From the NCBI RefSeq assembly GCF_003207795.1, contig NZ_NIRT01000003.1, positions 1 to 64,000 on the forward strand: 64,000 nt of DNA, read 5' to 3'. Shown here piece by piece: positions 3,971-16,374 of this stretch (positions within the stretch are counted from its first letter, which is position 1; every line of letters starts with the position of its first letter). The DNA is from Komagataeibacter nataicola. Lineage in GTDB: Bacteria > Pseudomonadota > Alphaproteobacteria > Acetobacterales > Acetobacteraceae. The notes beneath the pieces are model-generated. The model saw only the letters and a program-made list of their open reading frames with translations. It was not told the DNA's origin and ran no database searches. A program made the position numbers and the translations under genes.

Positions 3971-4049
3971 AAAGTTTCTGGTGAAGCTTTTTTCAAAGAG
4001 CTTCAGAAGATGTCGCTTTTTGGAAAAAGGCGACATTATTACTCTTTTA
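3971..4049. repeat. intergenic palindromic element, copy R1 (full, B-A order)
   Basis: Left arm AAAGTTTCTGGT; hairpin B at 3983-4004 (GAAGCTTTTT.. / ..GAGCTTC); linker AGAAGAT; hairpin A at 4012-4034 (GTCGCTTTTT.. / ..AAAAAGGCGAC); then a degraded right arm ending CTTTTATC. Read on the minus strand it has the same A-linker-B order as R2. It fills the gap between two convergent genes (CorC-like and lytic transglycosylase) and could end transcription from both sides. Confidence 0.85.
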
Positions 4050-7185: not shown

Positions 7186-9015
7186 ATGCTCTTACCTCGT
7201 CTGTCACGCATGGTCGTGGCCTCCCTTGTTGTACCGCTCCTTGCCGGGATTCCCAACCGTGAAATGCGGGCCGCCCCGCCGGTGGACCCCATCATGGAGG
7301 CCGGAAAGCAGGATCTGGCCACCAATCTGCTCGTTGGCAACGTAGCTGCGGCCGAGGGCGATAATGCCGAGGCCGCGCGGGCCTATGGCGTGGCGGCAGG
7401 GCTCGCGCCCACCTTCCGGCTGTTTGGCGAGCGGGCGTTTTTCTACAGCATTCTGGCGGGCAGCCCGGAGGCGGGTGCGCTCGCCCGCGCGCAGCCCTCC
7501 GGCGTGATGCCCGAACTGGTCATGGGCAACACCGCAGCCCTTGCGGGGCGGTGGGATGAGGCGGTGACACATTATCAGAACGCGCCAGCCGACCAGATCA
7601 TGGGCCTGCTGCGCCCGCTGCTGCGCGCCTGGGCGCTCCAGGGCGCGGGCAAGACGGATGAGGCCCTCGCAGCCCTCGCGCCCGCCGAAGTGGATGCCCG
7701 GCTGGGTGGGTACTATATCCTGCACTCGGCCCTGATCGCCCAGCTTGGCGGCATGCAGATGCGGGCTGATACGCTGTTCCGCCAGGCGGCGGAAAAGGGC
7801 AGCGGCGATCTGTTCACCACGGTGGTCATGGCGCGCTGGCTGGTCACCCAGGGGCAGGAGGCGGCGGCGCGCGACCTGATTAACCAGCGCATCACGGCCA
7901 TGCCGGTGCTGGAAACGGCGCGCGGCAACATCATGGCCATGCTCCAGCACCCGGTGGTGAGCCATGCCACGCAGGGTCTGGCACAGGCCTACGGACTGGT
8001 GGCGCTGCTGATCGACCAGCAGCTTTATGCCCATGAAGGCGCGGATGAAGACCATGCGGGTGATGCCGCGCTGGAAATCGGCACCCTGCGCGGCACCGAG
8101 CAGATGATGCTGCGCATGGCGCTCACCCTTGACCCTGCGGATTCGGAGGCGCGGCTGCTGCTCTCCTCCATGCTGCACGCCCGCAAGCAGGACCGGCAGG
8201 CGCGCGCCGCCTTTGATGGCGCCCCGGGCAGTGATCCCCTTCTGCCCGTCTATCACGCCGAACAGGCCGATCTTGACGTGGTGCTGGGCCACAAGGAACA
8301 GGCGGCACAGGAGTTGCGCGACCTGCTGCGCCAGTCCCCCGATGACCGCATGCTGTGGAGCAGCCTCGGCGATGCCCTGCTCGACCAGCAGAAATGGCCC
8401 GAAGCCCTTGATGCCTACCAGCATGCCATCGCCCTCACCCCCCACCGGCTGGAAGGTGATGACTGGCGGCTGCTGTTTGGTCAGGCCATAGCGCAGGAGC
8501 GCCAGAATCACTGGCCGCAGGCGCGGGTTCTGCTGCAGCATGCCCTCCAGCTTGCGCCCAATGAGGCGGAACTGCTGAATTACCTCGGCTATTCCATGGT
8601 TGAGCACGGCGAGAACCCGGCCCTGGCCGAAGCCTACCTGCGCCGCGCACTCGCGCTTGCCCCCTCCGATAACCAGATCCGCGATAGCGTGGGCTGGGTG
8701 CTCATGCGTCTGGGCCATGTGGCGGAGGGCCTGCCGCTGCTTGAGCAGTCGGTTGAGCAGATGCCGCAGGACCCGGCCATCAACTACCACCTTGGCGTGG
8801 CGTACTGGATGGCGGGCCGGAGGCTGGAGGCGGTGAATGAATGGCAGAACGCCATCCAGTTCCAGCCTGACCCGATGGATCGCCGCAAGATCACGGCGGC
8901 GCTGGACTATGCCCATGCGTGGCAGGCCCACAGGCCCATGGCCCTGCCTGCCGACCTCAAGCCGGTGGCAACGCCGCCTTCTTCCCCTTCCCAGCCAAAT
9001 GGAACCCGTCACTGA
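7186..9015 (+). CDS. secreted tetratricopeptide-repeat protein
   Basis: 610-residue protein with an N-terminal signal (MLLPRLSRMVVASLVVPLLAGIPNREMRAA) followed by tandem TPR-like helix pairs. Clear repeats lie in the second half, such as DRMLWSSLGDALLDQQKWPEALDAY, NEAELLNYLGYSMVEHGENPALAEAYLRRALALAPSD and DPAINYHLGVAYWMAGRRLEAVNEW. It probably acts as a periplasmic scaffold; no enzymatic motif is seen. The start is set by the signal peptide (an in-frame ATG at 7084 would put about 34 atypical residues in front). Its stop TGA overlaps the ispE ATG by one base (TGATG), so the two are translationally coupled. The partner is unknown. Confidence 0.82.
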   Translation: MLLPRLSRMVVASLVVPLLAGIPNREMRAAPPVDPIMEAGKQDLATNLLVGNVAAAEGDNAEAARAYGVAAGLAPTFRLFGERAFFYSILAGSPEAGALARAQPSGVMPELVMGNTAALAGRWDEAVTHYQNAPADQIMGLLRPLLRAWALQGAGKTDEALAALAPAEVDARLGGYYILHSALIAQLGGMQMRADTLFRQAAEKGSGDLFTTVVMARWLVTQGQEAAARDLINQRITAMPVLETARGNIMAMLQHPVVSHATQGLAQAYGLVALLIDQQLYAHEGADEDHAGDAALEIGTLRGTEQMMLRMALTLDPADSEARLLLSSMLHARKQDRQARAAFDGAPGSDPLLPVYHAEQADLDVVLGHKEQAAQELRDLLRQSPDDRMLWSSLGDALLDQQKWPEALDAYQHAIALTPHRLEGDDWRLLFGQAIAQERQNHWPQARVLLQHALQLAPNEAELLNYLGYSMVEHGENPALAEAYLRRALALAPSDNQIRDSVGWVLMRLGHVAEGLPLLEQSVEQMPQDPAINYHLGVAYWMAGRRLEAVNEWQNAIQFQPDPMDRRKITAALDYAHAWQAHRPMALPADLKPVATPPSSPSQPNGTRH

Positions 9016-9944
9016 TGTCGTCGCTGCACGAACTGGCGCATGCCAAGATCAACCTGTACCTGCATGTCACGGGGCGACGGCAGGCAGATGGCTATCACCT
9101 GCTTGACAGCCTTGCCGTATTCGCTGGTGCCGCAGACCGGCTGGACCTGAAAACGGGCAGCGGGCAGGGCGGCCATGTGGCGCTTGACATCAAGGGCCGG
9201 TTTTCCGCCAGGCTGGGGGATGAGGACTGCACCGATAACCTGATCGTACGCGCAGGGGCGATCCTGCGCGAACAGATTGGCAAGGATGCCGCGCGTAGCC
9301 TGCCGGATGTAGAGATCACGCTGCACAAGGAACTGCCCGTGGCCTCGGGCATTGGCGGCGGCTCGGCTGATGCCGCTGCCGCCCTGCGGCTGCTGCTGGG
9401 GGTCTGGAATCTTGACCTGCCGCGCGCAACACTCATGGCGCTGGCTACGCGGCTCGGTGCGGATGTGCCGGTCTGCCTCGATCAGTGTGCCGCGCGCATG
9501 GAGGGAATCGGTGAGGAACTCTCACCCGCGCCCCGTCTCCCGCCCTGTGGCATGATGCTGGTCAATTGCGGGCAGAGCGTATCCACCCCGCAGGTGTTCA
9601 AGGCCCGCGCGCCGGTTTTCACCCCCCGCGCCACGCTGCCCTCCACCTGGGCCACGCTGGCCGATATGGTGCGCGACCTCGCCACCCAGACCAACGACCT
9701 GCAGGAGGCCGCCTGTGCCATCTGCCCGGAAATCGTGACCGTGCTCGATGCCCTGCGGACAGCGCCCGGTTGCCGCCTTGCGCGCATGAGTGGGTCGGGG
9801 GCCACGTGCTTTGCCCTGTTCGACAGCCCCGACGCCGCCCGTGCGGCACAGGCCGCCGTGCAGCAGGCTGGCGCGCACTGGTGGGTGTGGGCGGGTGATC
9901 TGTGCCGCAGCAGTGCGGATGTGCGGACATCTATCCCCGCCTGA
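9015..9944 (+). CDS. ispE: 4-diphosphocytidyl-2-C-methyl-D-erythritol kinase
   Basis: Phosphorylates CDP-ME at the 2-hydroxyl with ATP in the MEP isoprenoid pathway, downstream of dxs. A GHMP-kinase fold is evident: Lys11 in HAKINLYLHVTGRRQADGYH, the glycine-rich ATP loop ELPVASGIGGGSADAA (106-121), catalytic Asp150 in LGADVPVCL, and the C-terminal RMSGSGATCFALF loop. Length 309 is normal. It starts inside the stop codon of the TPR gene, so expression is tied to that gene. It ends just before repeat R2 and converges on the SDR gene. Confidence 0.95.
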   Translation: MSSLHELAHAKINLYLHVTGRRQADGYHLLDSLAVFAGAADRLDLKTGSGQGGHVALDIKGRFSARLGDEDCTDNLIVRAGAILREQIGKDAARSLPDVEITLHKELPVASGIGGGSADAAAALRLLLGVWNLDLPRATLMALATRLGADVPVCLDQCAARMEGIGEELSPAPRLPPCGMMLVNCGQSVSTPQVFKARAPVFTPRATLPSTWATLADMVRDLATQTNDLQEAACAICPEIVTVLDALRTAPGCRLARMSGSGATCFALFDSPDAARAAQAAVQQAGAHWWVWAGDLCRSSADVRTSIPA

Positions 9945-9962: not shown

Positions 9963-10050
9963 GGATAGAAGTTTTTGGGTGCCGCCTTTTTTCAAAAAGG
10001 CGGCGTCTTCCGAAGCTTTTTGAAAAAAGCTTCGCCAAAAACTTTTATCC
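9963..10050. repeat. intergenic palindromic element, copy R2 (full, A-B order, best preserved)
   Basis: Left arm GGATAGAAGTTTTTGGGT; hairpin A at 9981-10004 (11-bp stem GCCGCCTTTTT/AAAAAGGCGGC, loop TC); linker GTCTTCC; hairpin B at 10012-10033 (10-bp stem GAAGCTTTTT/AAAAAGCTTC, loop GA); right arm CCAAAAACTTTTATCC, complementary to the left arm. It lies between convergent ispE and the SDR gene. Both hairpins carry T/A tracts on both strands, as in bidirectional terminators. Confidence 0.9.
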
Positions 10051-10055
10051 GGTTT

Positions 10056-11042
10056 TCAGCTTTTTTTACGGCGCAGGGCCAGCAGCACGATGCCCATCAG
10101 CCCCGTTACGGTGGCAAGCTGGGCATGGCGGCTGGTCAGCAGGAACGGCATGGCCTTGCGGGTGACCATGTCAAACCGCCCATGGGCGGCATAGGCGCCG
10201 GGCACGGTTTCATACAGGTCATCAGGCTCATTGCCTGCCACCGGGGTCTTTTCCAGTTGCTTCGCGTAGCCCTTGCCCGACAGCCAGCGGTCTGACAGGC
10301 CGGGCAGAAAGGTGGAAAGCGCCCATTTGCGCACGCCCGACAGGCCCACCCAGATATCGCGCTCGCGCCCGAAGGCGGCGCGGCAGATGGCCTCGGCGGC
10401 GATTTCAGGCTCATAGACCGGCCCCATCGGCTTGAGGCGCTTGCCGGTGTGGTTGCGTGTCCATGAAAAGCGCGGCGTGTTGATGGCGGGCAGGTGCACC
10501 AGCGCGATATGGATGCGGTCGCCATCATGCAGGATTTCGGGGCGGATGCTCTCGGAGAAGGCCCGCACGGCGGCACGCGCCCCGTTTTCCACCGCCTGCA
10601 GCGGCGGCGGGCGCAGACTGGCCAGCCGGTCGAGGTTGACGATGGTGCCATGGCCGCGACGGCGCATGCGCGTAAGCGCGGCGCGGGTGCCGTTGACGGT
10701 GCCGAGATAGGTCACCTCGGTCGCGCGGCGGATCTCATCGGCCTCAAGGGCTGCGACCTGACCGGTTACAGTGGCCCCGGCGCAGTTGATCCATAGCGTG
10801 ATGGGGCCGAGTTTTTCCTCTATTTCCTCAGCCGCCTGTTCCACTGCCGCCGCATCCGCCACGTCGGCGCATACGATATGGGTGCGCACGGTGAGTTCGC
10901 GCAGTTCGGCGGCGGCATCATTGAGCCGGTCGCGGTTGCGGCCAAGCAGGGCGACATCGCACCCGGCCCGGGCCAGTGTGCGGGCCGTGGCGCGGCCGAT
11001 TCCCGCGCCCGCTCCGGTAATGACGGCAACCTGCTGCGGCAT
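10056..11042 (-). CDS. SDR-fold protein lacking the catalytic residues, C-terminal membrane tail
   Basis: Rossmann-fold short-chain dehydrogenase relative. The NAD(P) loop VAVITGAGAGIGRATA is intact near the N-terminus, and WINCAGA (NNAG-like) and TYLGTVNGTRAAL are recognisable. The active site is not. Where family members have N-x-S-S the sequence reads NLDRL (136-140), and where they have Y-x3-K it reads E-N-G-A-R (E152, R156). The C-terminus ends in LATVTGLMGIVLLALRRKKS, a single hydrophobic segment with a basic end. It probably binds a dinucleotide without normal SDR chemistry. The start MPQQVAVITG is chosen over an ATG 15 bases upstream. The function is unknown. Confidence 0.8.
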   Translation of the reverse strand: MPQQVAVITGAGAGIGRATARTLARAGCDVALLGRNRDRLNDAAAELRELTVRTHIVCADVADAAAVEQAAEEIEEKLGPITLWINCAGATVTGQVAALEADEIRRATEVTYLGTVNGTRAALTRMRRRGHGTIVNLDRLASLRPPPLQAVENGARAAVRAFSESIRPEILHDGDRIHIALVHLPAINTPRFSWTRNHTGKRLKPMGPVYEPEIAAEAICRAAFGRERDIWVGLSGVRKWALSTFLPGLSDRWLSGKGYAKQLEKTPVAGNEPDDLYETVPGAYAAHGRFDMVTRKAMPFLLTSRHAQLATVTGLMGIVLLALRRKKS

Positions 11043-11169
11043 GAATGATGCTCCCACCCGTTGGTAACAAGGACCGCGCGGGCAACGCCGCGCGGGCTCA
11101 AGATCAGGATCGGCACCCTATCACGGCCTGCGGCGGGCGAACACCATCACGCAGGCCGGGCTGCCTCCC

Positions 11170-11748
11170 TCAGATGTATTTCAGCGCCACGATGCCACCC
11201 ACCAGCATCACCGCGAACAGCCCGGCCACCAGCGGCAGGCGGCGCTCGATAAAGCCCTGGATCGGCGCGCCATAGCGGCGCAGCAGGGCCGCAAGCAGGA
11301 AGAAGCGCGTGCCGCGCGTTACCGCGCAGGCCAGCAGGAACGGCACCAGCGACAGATGCGCCGCCCCGCTGGCAATGGTGACGAATTTGAACGGGATGGG
11401 AGTCAGCCCCTTGATGAGGATGATCCAGATGCCCCATTCGCGGAAGCGTTCCTGCAAAGTCTGCAATGTGTGCTCGGCATGATAGAAATGCACGATTGGC
11501 ATGGCCGCATATTCCAGCAGGAACGAGCCGATGCACCAGCCCAGCACTGCCCCCGCCACGGAGGCGGCGGTGCAGATGGCGGCCAGGCGGAAGGCCCGCT
11601 CGCGCTGTGTCAGCACCATCGGCAGCAGCATGATGTCGGGCGGCAGCGGAAAGACGCTGGCCTCGGCAAAGGCGATGACCGCCAGCCAGATGACGGCATG
11701 CCGGCTTGAAGCCAGCGCGATGATGCGGGAGTACAGGCGATCAAGCAT
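11170..11748 (-). CDS. YqaA-family (VTT/SNARE-associated domain) membrane protein
   Basis: 192-residue inner-membrane protein with the re-entrant loop pattern of the DedA/YqaA superfamily: AVIAFAEASVFPLPPDIMLLPMVL near residues 24-47, SVAGAVLGWCIGSFLLEYAA, and GLTPIPFKFVTIASGAAHLSLVPFLLACAVTRGTRFF at about 113-150. Four or five membrane segments are evident. Relatives are linked to membrane lipid handling (undecaprenyl phosphate or phospholipid scrambling), but the substrate cannot be told here. It lies on the same strand as the SDR gene; the gap holds two GC-rich hairpins without T-runs. Confidence 0.82.
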   Translation of the reverse strand: MLDRLYSRIIALASSRHAVIWLAVIAFAEASVFPLPPDIMLLPMVLTQRERAFRLAAICTAASVAGAVLGWCIGSFLLEYAAMPIVHFYHAEHTLQTLQERFREWGIWIILIKGLTPIPFKFVTIASGAAHLSLVPFLLACAVTRGTRFFLLAALLRRYGAPIQGFIERRLPLVAGLFAVMLVGGIVALKYI

Positions 11749-11788: not shown

Positions 11789-12268
11789 TTATTGCGCGCG
11801 GGTTACGCGTGGCTCGCAGGTTACGGGAAAGCGGACCGAGCGTGCGATGCAGCTGCGCATGGCGGCATCATGGTGCAGGTCGATCACCTGCTGCACGTCA
11901 TGCGCGGTGGAAAGGGCGGCATGGGGCCGCAGGATGACCTGCGTGAAGGAGAATGACCCGTCCTCGAATTCCTCCAGAATGCCCTCGGCATGATCGGCAT
12001 AGGAAAGAATGCCGATTCCCATCGCCGTGCACAGATGGATGAACCAGAGCTGGTGGTCCGCGCACAGCGCGCCGAGCAGCAGCTTCTCGGGGTTCCATTT
12101 CTGGGAATCGCCGCGAAAGGCGGGCGAGGCCGAGCCATCAATGACCGGCCGGCCCGTGCAGTGCAGCTCGTAGCTGCGTTGATGATGGGCCTGCCGGGAA
12201 GCCCCGTCATGTTCGCCGTTTCCGGTCCATAAAAGTGAGACCTGATAACGGTGTGTTCTGTCCGGCAT
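11789..12268 (-). CDS. OsmC/YhfA-like family protein
   Basis: 159-residue OsmC-superfamily protein; relatives are thiol peroxidases or stress proteins. Visible landmarks are VSLLWTGN, the block KWNPEKLLLGALCADHQLWFIHLC (residues 57-80) and SCIARSVRFPVTCEP (139-153). Relatives usually have the peroxidatic Cys immediately before the His of this block (S-x-C-H). Here that position is Asp71, with a Cys two residues earlier (C69) and others at C80, C140 and C151. Redox activity is therefore uncertain; the alignment is from memory. It is the next gene after the sensor kinase on the same strand. Confidence 0.75.
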   Translation of the reverse strand: MPDRTHRYQVSLLWTGNGEHDGASRQAHHQRSYELHCTGRPVIDGSASPAFRGDSQKWNPEKLLLGALCADHQLWFIHLCTAMGIGILSYADHAEGILEEFEDGSFSFTQVILRPHAALSTAHDVQQVIDLHHDAAMRSCIARSVRFPVTCEPRVTRAQ

Positions 12269-12308: not shown

Positions 12309-13886
12309 TTAGCAGACAAGTGTGACAGTCACACGTAATCCATGCGGGTGTCGGTTGCCTAGCCGGATATCGCCGCCAAGCCCCCAGATAATGTTGCGCG
12401 AAATCGACAGGCCCAGCCCTGTGCCGCCGGTTTCACGGTTGCGGCTGTGCTCGGCGCGCACAAAGGGGTCGAACATGCGCTCGAGGTCCTCGGTGGGCAG
12501 GCCGGGGCCATCATCCTCGATCAGGATGGTGACGGTGGATTCCGCGCCGTCCTCGCCCGTGCCCTTGTGGGGCGGCAGCAGCACGATCCGCACGCCGCCG
12601 CCATATTTTATGGCGTTGGTGACAAGGTTGCTCAGCGCGCGCTTGAGCGCCATTGGGCGCGCGCGCACCAGCACGTCTGGCATTTCCGATGAAAACGCGA
12701 TGTTGTCCGCCTCATCGAGGTAGGTCTCGGCGGCTTCATCGGCAATGGTCTGCAGGAGGGCGGTCAGGTTGACCTGCCCCATCGGCTCGCGTTGCGAGGC
12801 GTCGCGGCCAAAGGCCAGGGTGGCGGCCACCATGGCCTCGAGTTCATCGAGGTCAGCCAGCATCTTGGCCCGCATCTCGTCATCCTCGATGAATTCGGTG
12901 CGCAGTTTCAGGCGCGTGATTGGCGTGCGCAGGTCGTGGCCGATGGCGGTCAGCATCAGCGTGCGGTCGGTCAGGTAGCGGCGGATGCGGTGCGCCATGG
13001 TGTTGAAGGCATGGGCGGCGCGCGCCACCTCGCTTGGCCCGTCCTCGGGCATGGGGGGCGCGTTGACGTTGCGGCCAAGTTCCTCGGCGGCGGCGCCGAG
13101 CGTGCTGACGGGCGCGATCAGCCTGCGCACGCCCCACAGGATCAGGATGCCGCCCGCGAAGGTCATGATGAGGAAGGCAATGGGGAAGGTGGGCGAACGG
13201 AACGGGCTGGGCCGGGGCAGGATGTAATGGATCGTGACCCACCGCCGCTCATCGGGCAGCAGAAAGGCAACCGTCCGCCTGCGCCCTGATGTGGGCGAGA
13301 TCAGCACCTGCTCGGGGCGCATGGATTGCGGCAGCGGCCCCATGCCGGGGTCATTTTCCGGGCCGAAGCCATGCGGGCCGCCGGGGCTGTCGGGGCCGAA
13401 GGGGCCGCCGGGTCTGTGCGGACCACCATGGCTGAAGGGCACCGGCCCCATGTCATCGGGCATGTGGCCGCCATTCCACTCACCCGTCGGCATGTGGTGC
13501 TGGGGGTGGGGCGGGAGCGCCATGGCGTTGATCATGTCCGGCTCGGGGCCGGGGGTGAGGGTGATGTGCACGCTGTCAGGCAGATGGAGCGCTGCAAGCT
13601 CGCGGTCGCGGTCCGAGGGCGCGGTCTCCACGATGGCGCGGTAATAGGTGAACATCTTGCTGCGCGCGCGCTCATAGATCATGCGCTGGTCAAAATCGAA
13701 CCGGTCCAGCGCATGGATGGTCAGCCCGATGATCTGGATGATGCCCAGCCCCCCGATCAGCAGCAGCGTGGTGCGCGCGGCAAGCGACTGCGGCAGGAGA
13801 CGACGCCACAGGCGCGGCCATGCACCCGGCGGCTTTTCCTCAGGTGGTGGCGCGGACAGGAAGGAGGAACCGGAGAACGGCTGCAT
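12309..13886 (-). CDS. sensor histidine kinase with a His/Pro/Gly-rich periplasmic insert
   Basis: EnvZ-type inner-membrane kinase, 525 residues. Two membrane segments (about 41-59 and 233-252) flank a periplasmic domain. HAMP follows (about 253-305), then the DHp helix with phosphoacceptor His317 in TAIGHDLRTPITRLKLR, the N box LVTNAIKYGG, and G boxes EDDGPGLP and GGTGLGLSISRNI. The periplasmic domain carries an unusual insert at residues 121-188, rich in Pro, Gly, Met and at least seven His, which looks like a metal-binding region. It lies eight bases after the response regulator on the same strand, so the two form one operon. The stimulus is unknown; metal sensing is inference. Confidence 0.93.
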   Translation of the reverse strand: MQPFSGSSFLSAPPPEEKPPGAWPRLWRRLLPQSLAARTTLLLIGGLGIIQIIGLTIHALDRFDFDQRMIYERARSKMFTYYRAIVETAPSDRDRELAALHLPDSVHITLTPGPEPDMINAMALPPHPQHHMPTGEWNGGHMPDDMGPVPFSHGGPHRPGGPFGPDSPGGPHGFGPENDPGMGPLPQSMRPEQVLISPTSGRRRTVAFLLPDERRWVTIHYILPRPSPFRSPTFPIAFLIMTFAGGILILWGVRRLIAPVSTLGAAAEELGRNVNAPPMPEDGPSEVARAAHAFNTMAHRIRRYLTDRTLMLTAIGHDLRTPITRLKLRTEFIEDDEMRAKMLADLDELEAMVAATLAFGRDASQREPMGQVNLTALLQTIADEAAETYLDEADNIAFSSEMPDVLVRARPMALKRALSNLVTNAIKYGGGVRIVLLPPHKGTGEDGAESTVTILIEDDGPGLPTEDLERMFDPFVRAEHSRNRETGGTGLGLSISRNIIWGLGGDIRLGNRHPHGLRVTVTLVC

Positions 13887-13894
13887 GGGGCGGG

Positions 13895-14614
13895 TCAGCT
13901 GCGCTCGACCTCGGCTGCGAGAACGTAGCCCCCGCCACGCACCGTCTTGATCAGTTGCGCGTTGCGGCCGTTATCTTCGAGCTTGCGGCGCAGGCGGCTG
14001 ATGGCGACATCAATGGCGCGGTCGAACGGACCGGCCTGCCGCCCGCGCAAAAGGTCGAACAGCATGTCGCGCGTCATGACCCGGTTGGCGCGGTCGAGCA
14101 GGGCGAGCAGCAGGTCGTATTCGCCACCGGTCAGGGGCACTTCCACCCCTTCGGGGTTGTGCAGCCGCCGCCGCCCGGTGTCGAGCGTCCAGCCCGCAAA
14201 GCGCAGCGTGTGCAGCACCGGCACGCTGCGCGGGTCCGGGGTGTCGCTGGCCCGGCGCAGCACGGCGCGGATGCGCGCAAGCAGCTCACGCGGGTTGAAG
14301 GGCTTGGGCACGTAGTCATCCGCGCCGAGTTCAAGGCCGATGATGCGGTCGGTGTCATCGCCCATGGCGGTCAGCATCACGATGGGCACGTTGGCCTGCG
14401 TGCGCAGCCAGCGCGAGATGTCCAGCCCGCTCTCGCCTGGCAGCATGAGATCGAGGATGACCAGCTGGTAATGCCCCTCCGCCCAGCGGCGGCGGGCCTC
14501 CTGCCCGTCACGCGCGGTGGTGACGCGCAGTTCGTTGCGTTCGAGGAAGCGTGCCAGCAGGTCACGGATCTCGCGGTCGTCATCGATGATGAGGATATGC
14601 GGCAGCGGGTTCAT
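13895..14614 (-). CDS. OmpR-family response regulator
   Basis: Cytoplasmic transcription regulator, 239 residues. The receiver domain has the acidic pocket ILIIDDD, phosphoacceptor Asp55 in LVILDLMLPGESGLD, the conserved Thr in PIVMLTAMG and Lys in DDYVPKPF. The C-terminal winged-helix domain (about 140-235) has LTGGEYDLLLALLDRANRVMTRDMLFDLLRG and DRAIDVAISRLRRKLED. The ATG at 14614 is preferred because AGGA sits six bases upstream; a GTG two codons earlier would abut that site. It is transcribed before its kinase. Target genes cannot be inferred. Confidence 0.95.
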   Translation of the reverse strand: MNPLPHILIIDDDREIRDLLARFLERNELRVTTARDGQEARRRWAEGHYQLVILDLMLPGESGLDISRWLRTQANVPIVMLTAMGDDTDRIIGLELGADDYVPKPFNPRELLARIRAVLRRASDTPDPRSVPVLHTLRFAGWTLDTGRRRLHNPEGVEVPLTGGEYDLLLALLDRANRVMTRDMLFDLLRGRQAGPFDRAIDVAISRLRRKLEDNGRNAQLIKTVRGGGYVLAAEVERS

Positions 14615-14691
14615 GCGCACATCCTACACCATGGCGCGCAGGCCCGCACCCGGTGTTTCACTCCGTTGCAATGGCGCGGGCCGCGGTTTGT

Positions 14692-16290: not shown

Positions 16291-16374
16291 AATAAAAGTT
16301 TTTGGTGAAGCGTTTTTCAAAAAGCTTCGGAAGACGTCGCCTTTTTGAAAAAAGGCGACACCCAAACACTTTTC
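16291..16374. repeat. intergenic palindromic element, copy R3 (full, B-A order)
   Basis: Left arm AATAAAAGTTTTTGGT; hairpin B at 16307-16328; linker GGAAGAC (complement of the R2 linker GTCTTCC); hairpin A at 16336-16359 with base GTCGCC/GGCGAC instead of GCCGCC/GGCGGC, so the second pair changed on both sides; right arm ACCCAAACACTTTTCC. It occupies the convergent junction of the rhodanese and DUF2272 genes. Confidence 0.9.

Follow-up and report, generated by a model that had tools for sequence, protein, structure and literature searches.

A short-chain dehydrogenase-like protein without the catalytic triad in Komagataeibacter and its relatives, a candidate membrane-sited pseudo-oxidoreductase

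Few enzyme superfamilies are as large as the short-chain dehydrogenases (SDRs), and in profile libraries proteins such as the one described here carry the label 'oxidoreductase'. A gene of Komagataeibacter nataicola raises the question of what an SDR may do once its catalytic residues are gone. It lies in the first 64,000 nucleotides of contig NZ_NIRT01000003.1 (the window), with the following parts.

10056..11042, minus strand: triad-less SDR (candidate pseudo-oxidoreductase), 328 aa; adh_short, PRK07109, R139/E152/R156
10992..11018, minus strand: cofactor loop T9-R17 (TGAGAGIGR); invariant columns in 67/67 triad-less proteins
10575..10628, minus strand: former catalytic region with columns 139, 152 and 156; S/Y/K in 46/46 intact rows and 0/67 triad-less proteins
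10062..10130, minus strand: C-terminal hydrophobic helix, residues 305-327; hydropathy, predicted helix, basic end

The open reading frame starts with ATG at 11042 and its stop codon ends at 10056; an alternative in-frame GTG start at 11057 would give a protein of 333 aa. The product matches Pfam adh_short (1.2e-38) and belongs to the PRK07109 subfamily, scoring 342.8 bits against the NCBIfam profile (NF005495; curated cut-off 264) over positions 7-330 of 334. Its closest named matches, in K. xylinus and K. melomenusus, show ~99% protein identity. Codon use is normal (GC3 0.80, correlation 0.91), as an earlier note on this DNA had judged, and falls within the ranges of eight neighbour genes (0.77-0.87 and 0.81-0.95, respectively).

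The protein has the marks of the classical SDR superfamily, namely a predicted Rossmann fold, a TGxxxGxG loop (T9-G10-A11-G12-A13-G14-I15-G16) and an N-x-A-G motif (N86-C87-A88-G89), the last two being intact where the earlier note had placed them. The catalytic residues are replaced: the alignment gives Arg for Ser, Glu for Tyr and Arg for Lys in columns 139, 152 and 156, bearing out the reading of E152 and R156 as a lost catalytic pair. The Ser region does read NLDRL (N136-L-D-R139-L), as first described, and the alignment now specifies R139 as the Ser column, D138 standing in the column that is Gly in GSALAYR. At nine of nine other SDR loci examined in the same genome (of 23 other matches) S/Y/K occupy the same columns, indicating that the alignment is sound and the loss specific. 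Thus, the protein is not a classical SDR in the enzymatic sense, for which a catalytic Ser and Tyr-x3-Lys are required; none of the 67 distinct relatives described below has them. It fits the sequence-based definition of a pseudoenzyme, a conserved protein without the conserved catalytic motifs of its family, given in the accessible text of PMC10211241.

Distribution and the nearest intact relative

We found the gene in all 19 genomes of the genus, without stop codons, and every Komagataeibacter row has R/E/R. A sequencing error is rejected by these identical residues in 19/19 genomes. The triad is absent from 67/67 distinct related proteins under 12 genus codes, which were collected from a search of 299 family genomes, a genus search, named records and 20 hand-picked matches. 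The named triad-less loci belong to Komagataeibacter (13), Novacetimonas (3) and Gluconacetobacter (1), and these matches lead us to infer that the 12 codes all stand for acetic acid bacteria. Positions 152 and 156 are E/R in 55 of the 67 and V/N/I/G with His in the other 12; conservation of E152/R156, which the earlier note had put forward as a check, therefore holds across the genus and is not universal beyond it. Between triad-less subclades, column 139 varies among Arg, Ala, Leu, Met and Ile, column 152 among Glu, Val, Asn, Ile and Gly, and column 156 between Arg and His. Glu152 as a new catalytic residue of the whole clade is rejected because of its absence from the 12 relatives. G10, A11, G12, G14, G16 and R17 of the cofactor loop are invariant in all 67 proteins, as is R35. 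Column 89 is Gly in 67/67 triad-less proteins and Met in 35/46 intact members.

A phylogeny of 93 distinct proteins was computed by a 'quick' method with the catalytic columns removed, after 17 of 110 rows had been dropped as identical; its output warns of long branches. Forty extra relatives had been hand-picked from the family listing, mostly in rank order with some rows skipped (for example, G039, G139, G108 and G286), and 20 later ones, chosen as new and high-scoring, stand outside the tree. The 47 triad-less rows form one clade (SH-aLRT 100, stem 0.79) and the triad-less label requires a single change. Outside this group, S/Y/K is intact in 46/46 tree rows. These include the best match of each of ten other genomes that pass the PRK07109 cut-off in a class-wide search, in which 11 of 289 genomes pass, the window's own among them.

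The closest tree row with an intact triad (L032) belongs to genome G086, and the nearest orthologue with Tyr/Lys is ~55-57% identical to the triad-less protein. Neither a close Tyr/Lys orthologue nor a sequencing error, the two findings that the earlier note had named as counting against its view, has thus emerged. The gene order around the SDR in G086 (locus L133) is that of the window, where the TPR gene and ispE are convergent to the SDR and the remaining flanking genes are as follows.

8979..9944, plus strand: ispE (CDP-ME kinase), convergent, marking the locus; NCBIfam ispE above cut-off, synteny
11170..11748, minus strand: VTT-domain membrane protein gene, directly upstream of the SDR; PF09335, 1.4e-10
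12309-13886, minus strand: histidine kinase; Pfam, conserved synteny
13895-14620, minus strand: response regulator; Pfam, conserved synteny

The VTT gene of L133 was confirmed by Pfam; synteny across the relatives' loci was judged by tblastn. Since the nearest intact homologue occupies the same locus, it is a positional orthologue, and catalysis appears to have been lost once in an orthologue. In sequence terms, an enzyme turned into a presumed non-enzyme where it stood on the chromosome; it was not a redundant paralogue that diverged.

G086 also has several further PRK07109-like matches, an expansion that contrasts with the one triad-less copy in Komagataeibacter. A second SDR paralogue with intact S/Y/K, ~40% identical to the triad-less protein (L097, L098 and L171), is found in Novacetimonas-like genomes (code g73) and in the viral_contigs set, on a contig listed there as viral (L171).

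Conservation, C-terminal tail and predicted structure

We then compared selection on the two groups. Estimates of dN/dS are 0.054-0.356 for 13 triad-less pairs and 0.049-0.144 for four intact pairs. For column entropies, thinning of near-copies left 33 triad-less rows and 34 intact ones, and ten distant rows of the intact 46 were excluded. Core averages are alike (1.00 bits in triad-less and 0.98 in intact proteins). The cofactor-binding columns are lower in the triad-less group: the Gly loop has 0.09 against 0.32 bits, D60-V61 0.00 against 0.39, N-x-A-G 0.23 against 0.53 and the end of strand 2 0.72 against 1.44. The reverse is seen for the Ser region (1.50 against 0.54), the Tyr/Lys columns (1.12 against 0.00), helix 157-170 (0.82 against 0.53) and columns 182-198, which lie within what is normally the substrate lid (0.74 against 0.39). 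By these columns, the catalytic positions became relaxed and the cofactor-binding ones stricter after loss of the triad. As far as sequences can show, the triad was lost once and the cofactor motifs have been retained under selection. A dying gene is rejected by dN/dS and column conservation; the earlier note had likewise taken the frame to be intact and the gene alive. Its suggestion of a repurposed NAD(P)-binding protein would remain the best reading, given purifying selection and the stricter cofactor columns.

The hydrophobic stretch LATVTGLMGIVLLAL precedes the C-terminal RRKKS, and positive residues flank the segment on both sides. Its Kyte-Doolittle score over 15 residues is 2.35, a value that 13 of 2000 random draws of 40 residues from the protein also reach. 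Over 19 residues it is only 1.36, suggesting a short or borderline membrane segment for this candidate tail-anchored protein, a type with one C-terminal transmembrane segment and a cytosolic N-terminal domain. The tail sequence is poorly conserved (2.26 bits). The segment probably binds the membrane. The earlier note supposed that the tail had been gained. However, the mean 15-residue score is 2.09 in 45 intact rows and 2.16 in 47 triad-less rows (L143, a short reading, was excluded), and 1.6 over 19 residues is reached by 28/45 and 17/47, respectively. A new gain is therefore rejected, and the tail is ancestral to the subfamily.

A structure model was built from an alignment of 70 rows, 55 of them other SDRs. 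The close alignment brought up no relative in viral_contigs; a looser scan of the same set served to deepen the alignment, with 80 SDR loci kept, 54 examined, one dropped for a stop codon and 53 used. A previous model from 18 close sequences (pLDDT 43) was set aside. The model has a mean pLDDT of 78.8, with most of the core above 90 and helix 305-327 at ~70, and its structural matches are all SDRs (Z up to 30.5). The best Foldseek match is HSD17B13 (PDB 8g89 and 8g84; E 3.3e-20, TM 0.69 by query length). Because ordinary SDRs dominate its alignment, the model is weak evidence for an open cofactor pocket. E152 and R156 lie four residues apart on predicted helix 150-171, and this i to i+4 pair may form a structural salt bridge in place of the catalytic pair.

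Proposed function and competing explanations

In our preferred reading, to which we give a probability of about 0.5, the protein is a pseudo-oxidoreductase that binds NADP(H) and serves as a membrane-sited regulatory or scaffold subunit of an envelope process. It would descend from a conventional SDR of the PRK07109 subfamily that already had its tail and already stood at this locus. In the lineage that led to Komagataeibacter and related bacteria, Ser, Tyr and Lys would have been dropped once and the protein put to a different use. The invariance of Arg17 and, where strand 2 ends, of Gly34-Arg35 makes NADP(H) binding likely. It is plausible that the protein associates with the inner membrane through its C-terminal helix. 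NADP(H) occupancy or the redox state might then alter its shape or partner binding. The most likely function, though unproved, is that of a regulator or scaffold close to the neighbouring VTT protein. Conservation of the cofactor motifs can, on the other hand, be kept for folding alone.

Of 67 distinct cases, 63 have the VTT gene directly upstream of the SDR and in the same orientation (gap 12-210 bases); in three it is not adjacent, and in one the flank is too short. In a test from which eight further genomes of the same search were left out of the counts, VTT was present in 10/10 genomes with a triad-less SDR and also in 13/20 that lack this SDR. Under genus code g41, VTT and ispE have no SDR between them at 5/5 loci. 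An obligatory partnership is unsupported, since VTT occurs without the SDR, and the SDR would be at most an optional companion of the VTT locus. A more specific proposal, a membrane-bound NADP(H) gauge that controls the adjacent VTT-type transporter or scramblase and so links cytosolic redox state to envelope composition, seems to us doubtful. If it were true, cytosolic redox, which is extreme in oxidative fermenters, would be coupled to the composition of the envelope.

Altered catalysis is the main rival, possible although rather less than an even bet. SDRs without the standard Tyr-x3-Lys arrangement exist and function, for example 2,4-dienoyl-CoA reductases, so that the protein could still transfer hydride with NADP(H) (for example, to an imine or an activated double bond) and draw on an alternative donor, such as Tyr112 or a lid residue, in place of the canonical Tyr. 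The cofactor motifs, Tyr112, N188-T189 and parts of the substrate lid are invariant in triad-less proteins, and the conserved columns 182-198 with Tyr112 would also fit a surviving enzyme. However, the free variation of columns 139, 152 and 156 between subclades indicates no universal replacement catalyst, and Tyr112, equally conserved in intact relatives, is not a new acquisition.

The pseudo-oxidoreductase reading must also be set against a purely structural role, in which an inactive protomer would assemble with a catalytically active SDR from the same cell, in the manner of mixed SDR oligomers, and bind the cofactor only to fold. SDRs commonly oligomerise, the structure matches include a human ketoacyl reductase of SDR type that is a heterotetramer (4cqm and 4cql) and the genome has the 23 other SDR-like matches; yet the conserved neighbourhood contains no SDR partner gene and the nearest SDRs of the genome are only ~32% identical, making such pairing improbable. 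A functionless relic in slow decay might explain the clean absence of the gene from some relatives and the long stem branch. The stop-free genes throughout the genus, the dN/dS range and the invariant positions kept across 33 divergent triad-less proteins leave it hardly any credence, and for the triad-less clade the conservation data effectively refute it.

Among known systems, the PRK07109 subfamily itself has the same length and C-terminal hydrophobic tail, and one intact member at the same locus. Its intact members keep S139/Y152/K156, in contrast to this SDR, in which all three are gone. HSCARG/NMRAL1 and NmrA are atypical NmrA-type SDRs, mostly eukaryotic regulators. In the accessible part of their literature they are SDR-fold NADP(H) sensors and not enzymes, and they serve as our working analogy for the proposed function. 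Human HSD17B13 is a membrane- or lipid-droplet-associated SDR; its membrane attachment is N-terminal, not C-terminal. It is only 22-24% identical and, by its entry titles, an active enzyme. By sequence, the best PDB match (82 bits only) is a Vibrio 'blue fluorescent protein' (3p19), an NADPH-binding SDR that retains Tyr-x3-Lys in the alignment. A metagenomic protein of this name, mBFP, is described in the available text of PMC6207642 as an NADPH-binding SDR and NADPH reporter.

By the usual SDR rules, Arg at such cofactor positions points to NADP(H) rather than NAD(H). MAT2B, the regulatory subunit of human methionine adenosyltransferase, is an NADP-binding regulator of SDR fold with a Gly-x-Arg-Arg loop after strand 2, comparable with G34-R35 here (accessible text of PMC3793261). 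Taken together, these rules, this loop and the invariance of R17 and R35 suggest NADP(H) over NAD(H). MAT2B differs in being a nucleotide-sugar type SDR that retains the Tyr-x3-Lys and Ser triad, and the same portion of PMC3793261 mentions no membrane tail.

Pseudoenzymes and NADP-binding SDR regulators are known kinds; the triad-less branch was not found in our searches of the open-licence PMC literature, which brought up no paper on this protein, on a pseudoenzyme of acetic acid bacteria, on PRK07109 or on a DedA-SDR operon. Komagataeibacter papers there on inactive short-chain dehydrogenases, as judged by titles and the beginnings of abstracts, include none on this SDR. The branch would offer a clean natural experiment on the passage from an enzyme to a cofactor-binding non-enzyme in industrially used vinegar- and cellulose-making bacteria. 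It combines one loss in an orthologue at a constant locus with a sister gene that is still intact, dozens of living triad-less descendants and a visible shift of conservation from catalytic to cofactor columns. The branch also advises caution for metabolic models that count the SDR gene as a dehydrogenase.

Further features of the locus

An OsmC-like gene (11789-12268) lies between VTT and the histidine kinase. It is found in most Komagataeibacter loci and is absent from the other genera examined, a lineage-specific insertion into a conserved cluster. By the stop codon of the SDR we found a palindromic intergenic repeat (10012-10033), which recurs at 3983-4004 and 16307-16328. These are the three window sites at up to three mismatches (none expected), and the genome has 37 exact copies, against none for the reversed control. 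It looks like a dispersed repeat element or a repeated terminator-like structure.
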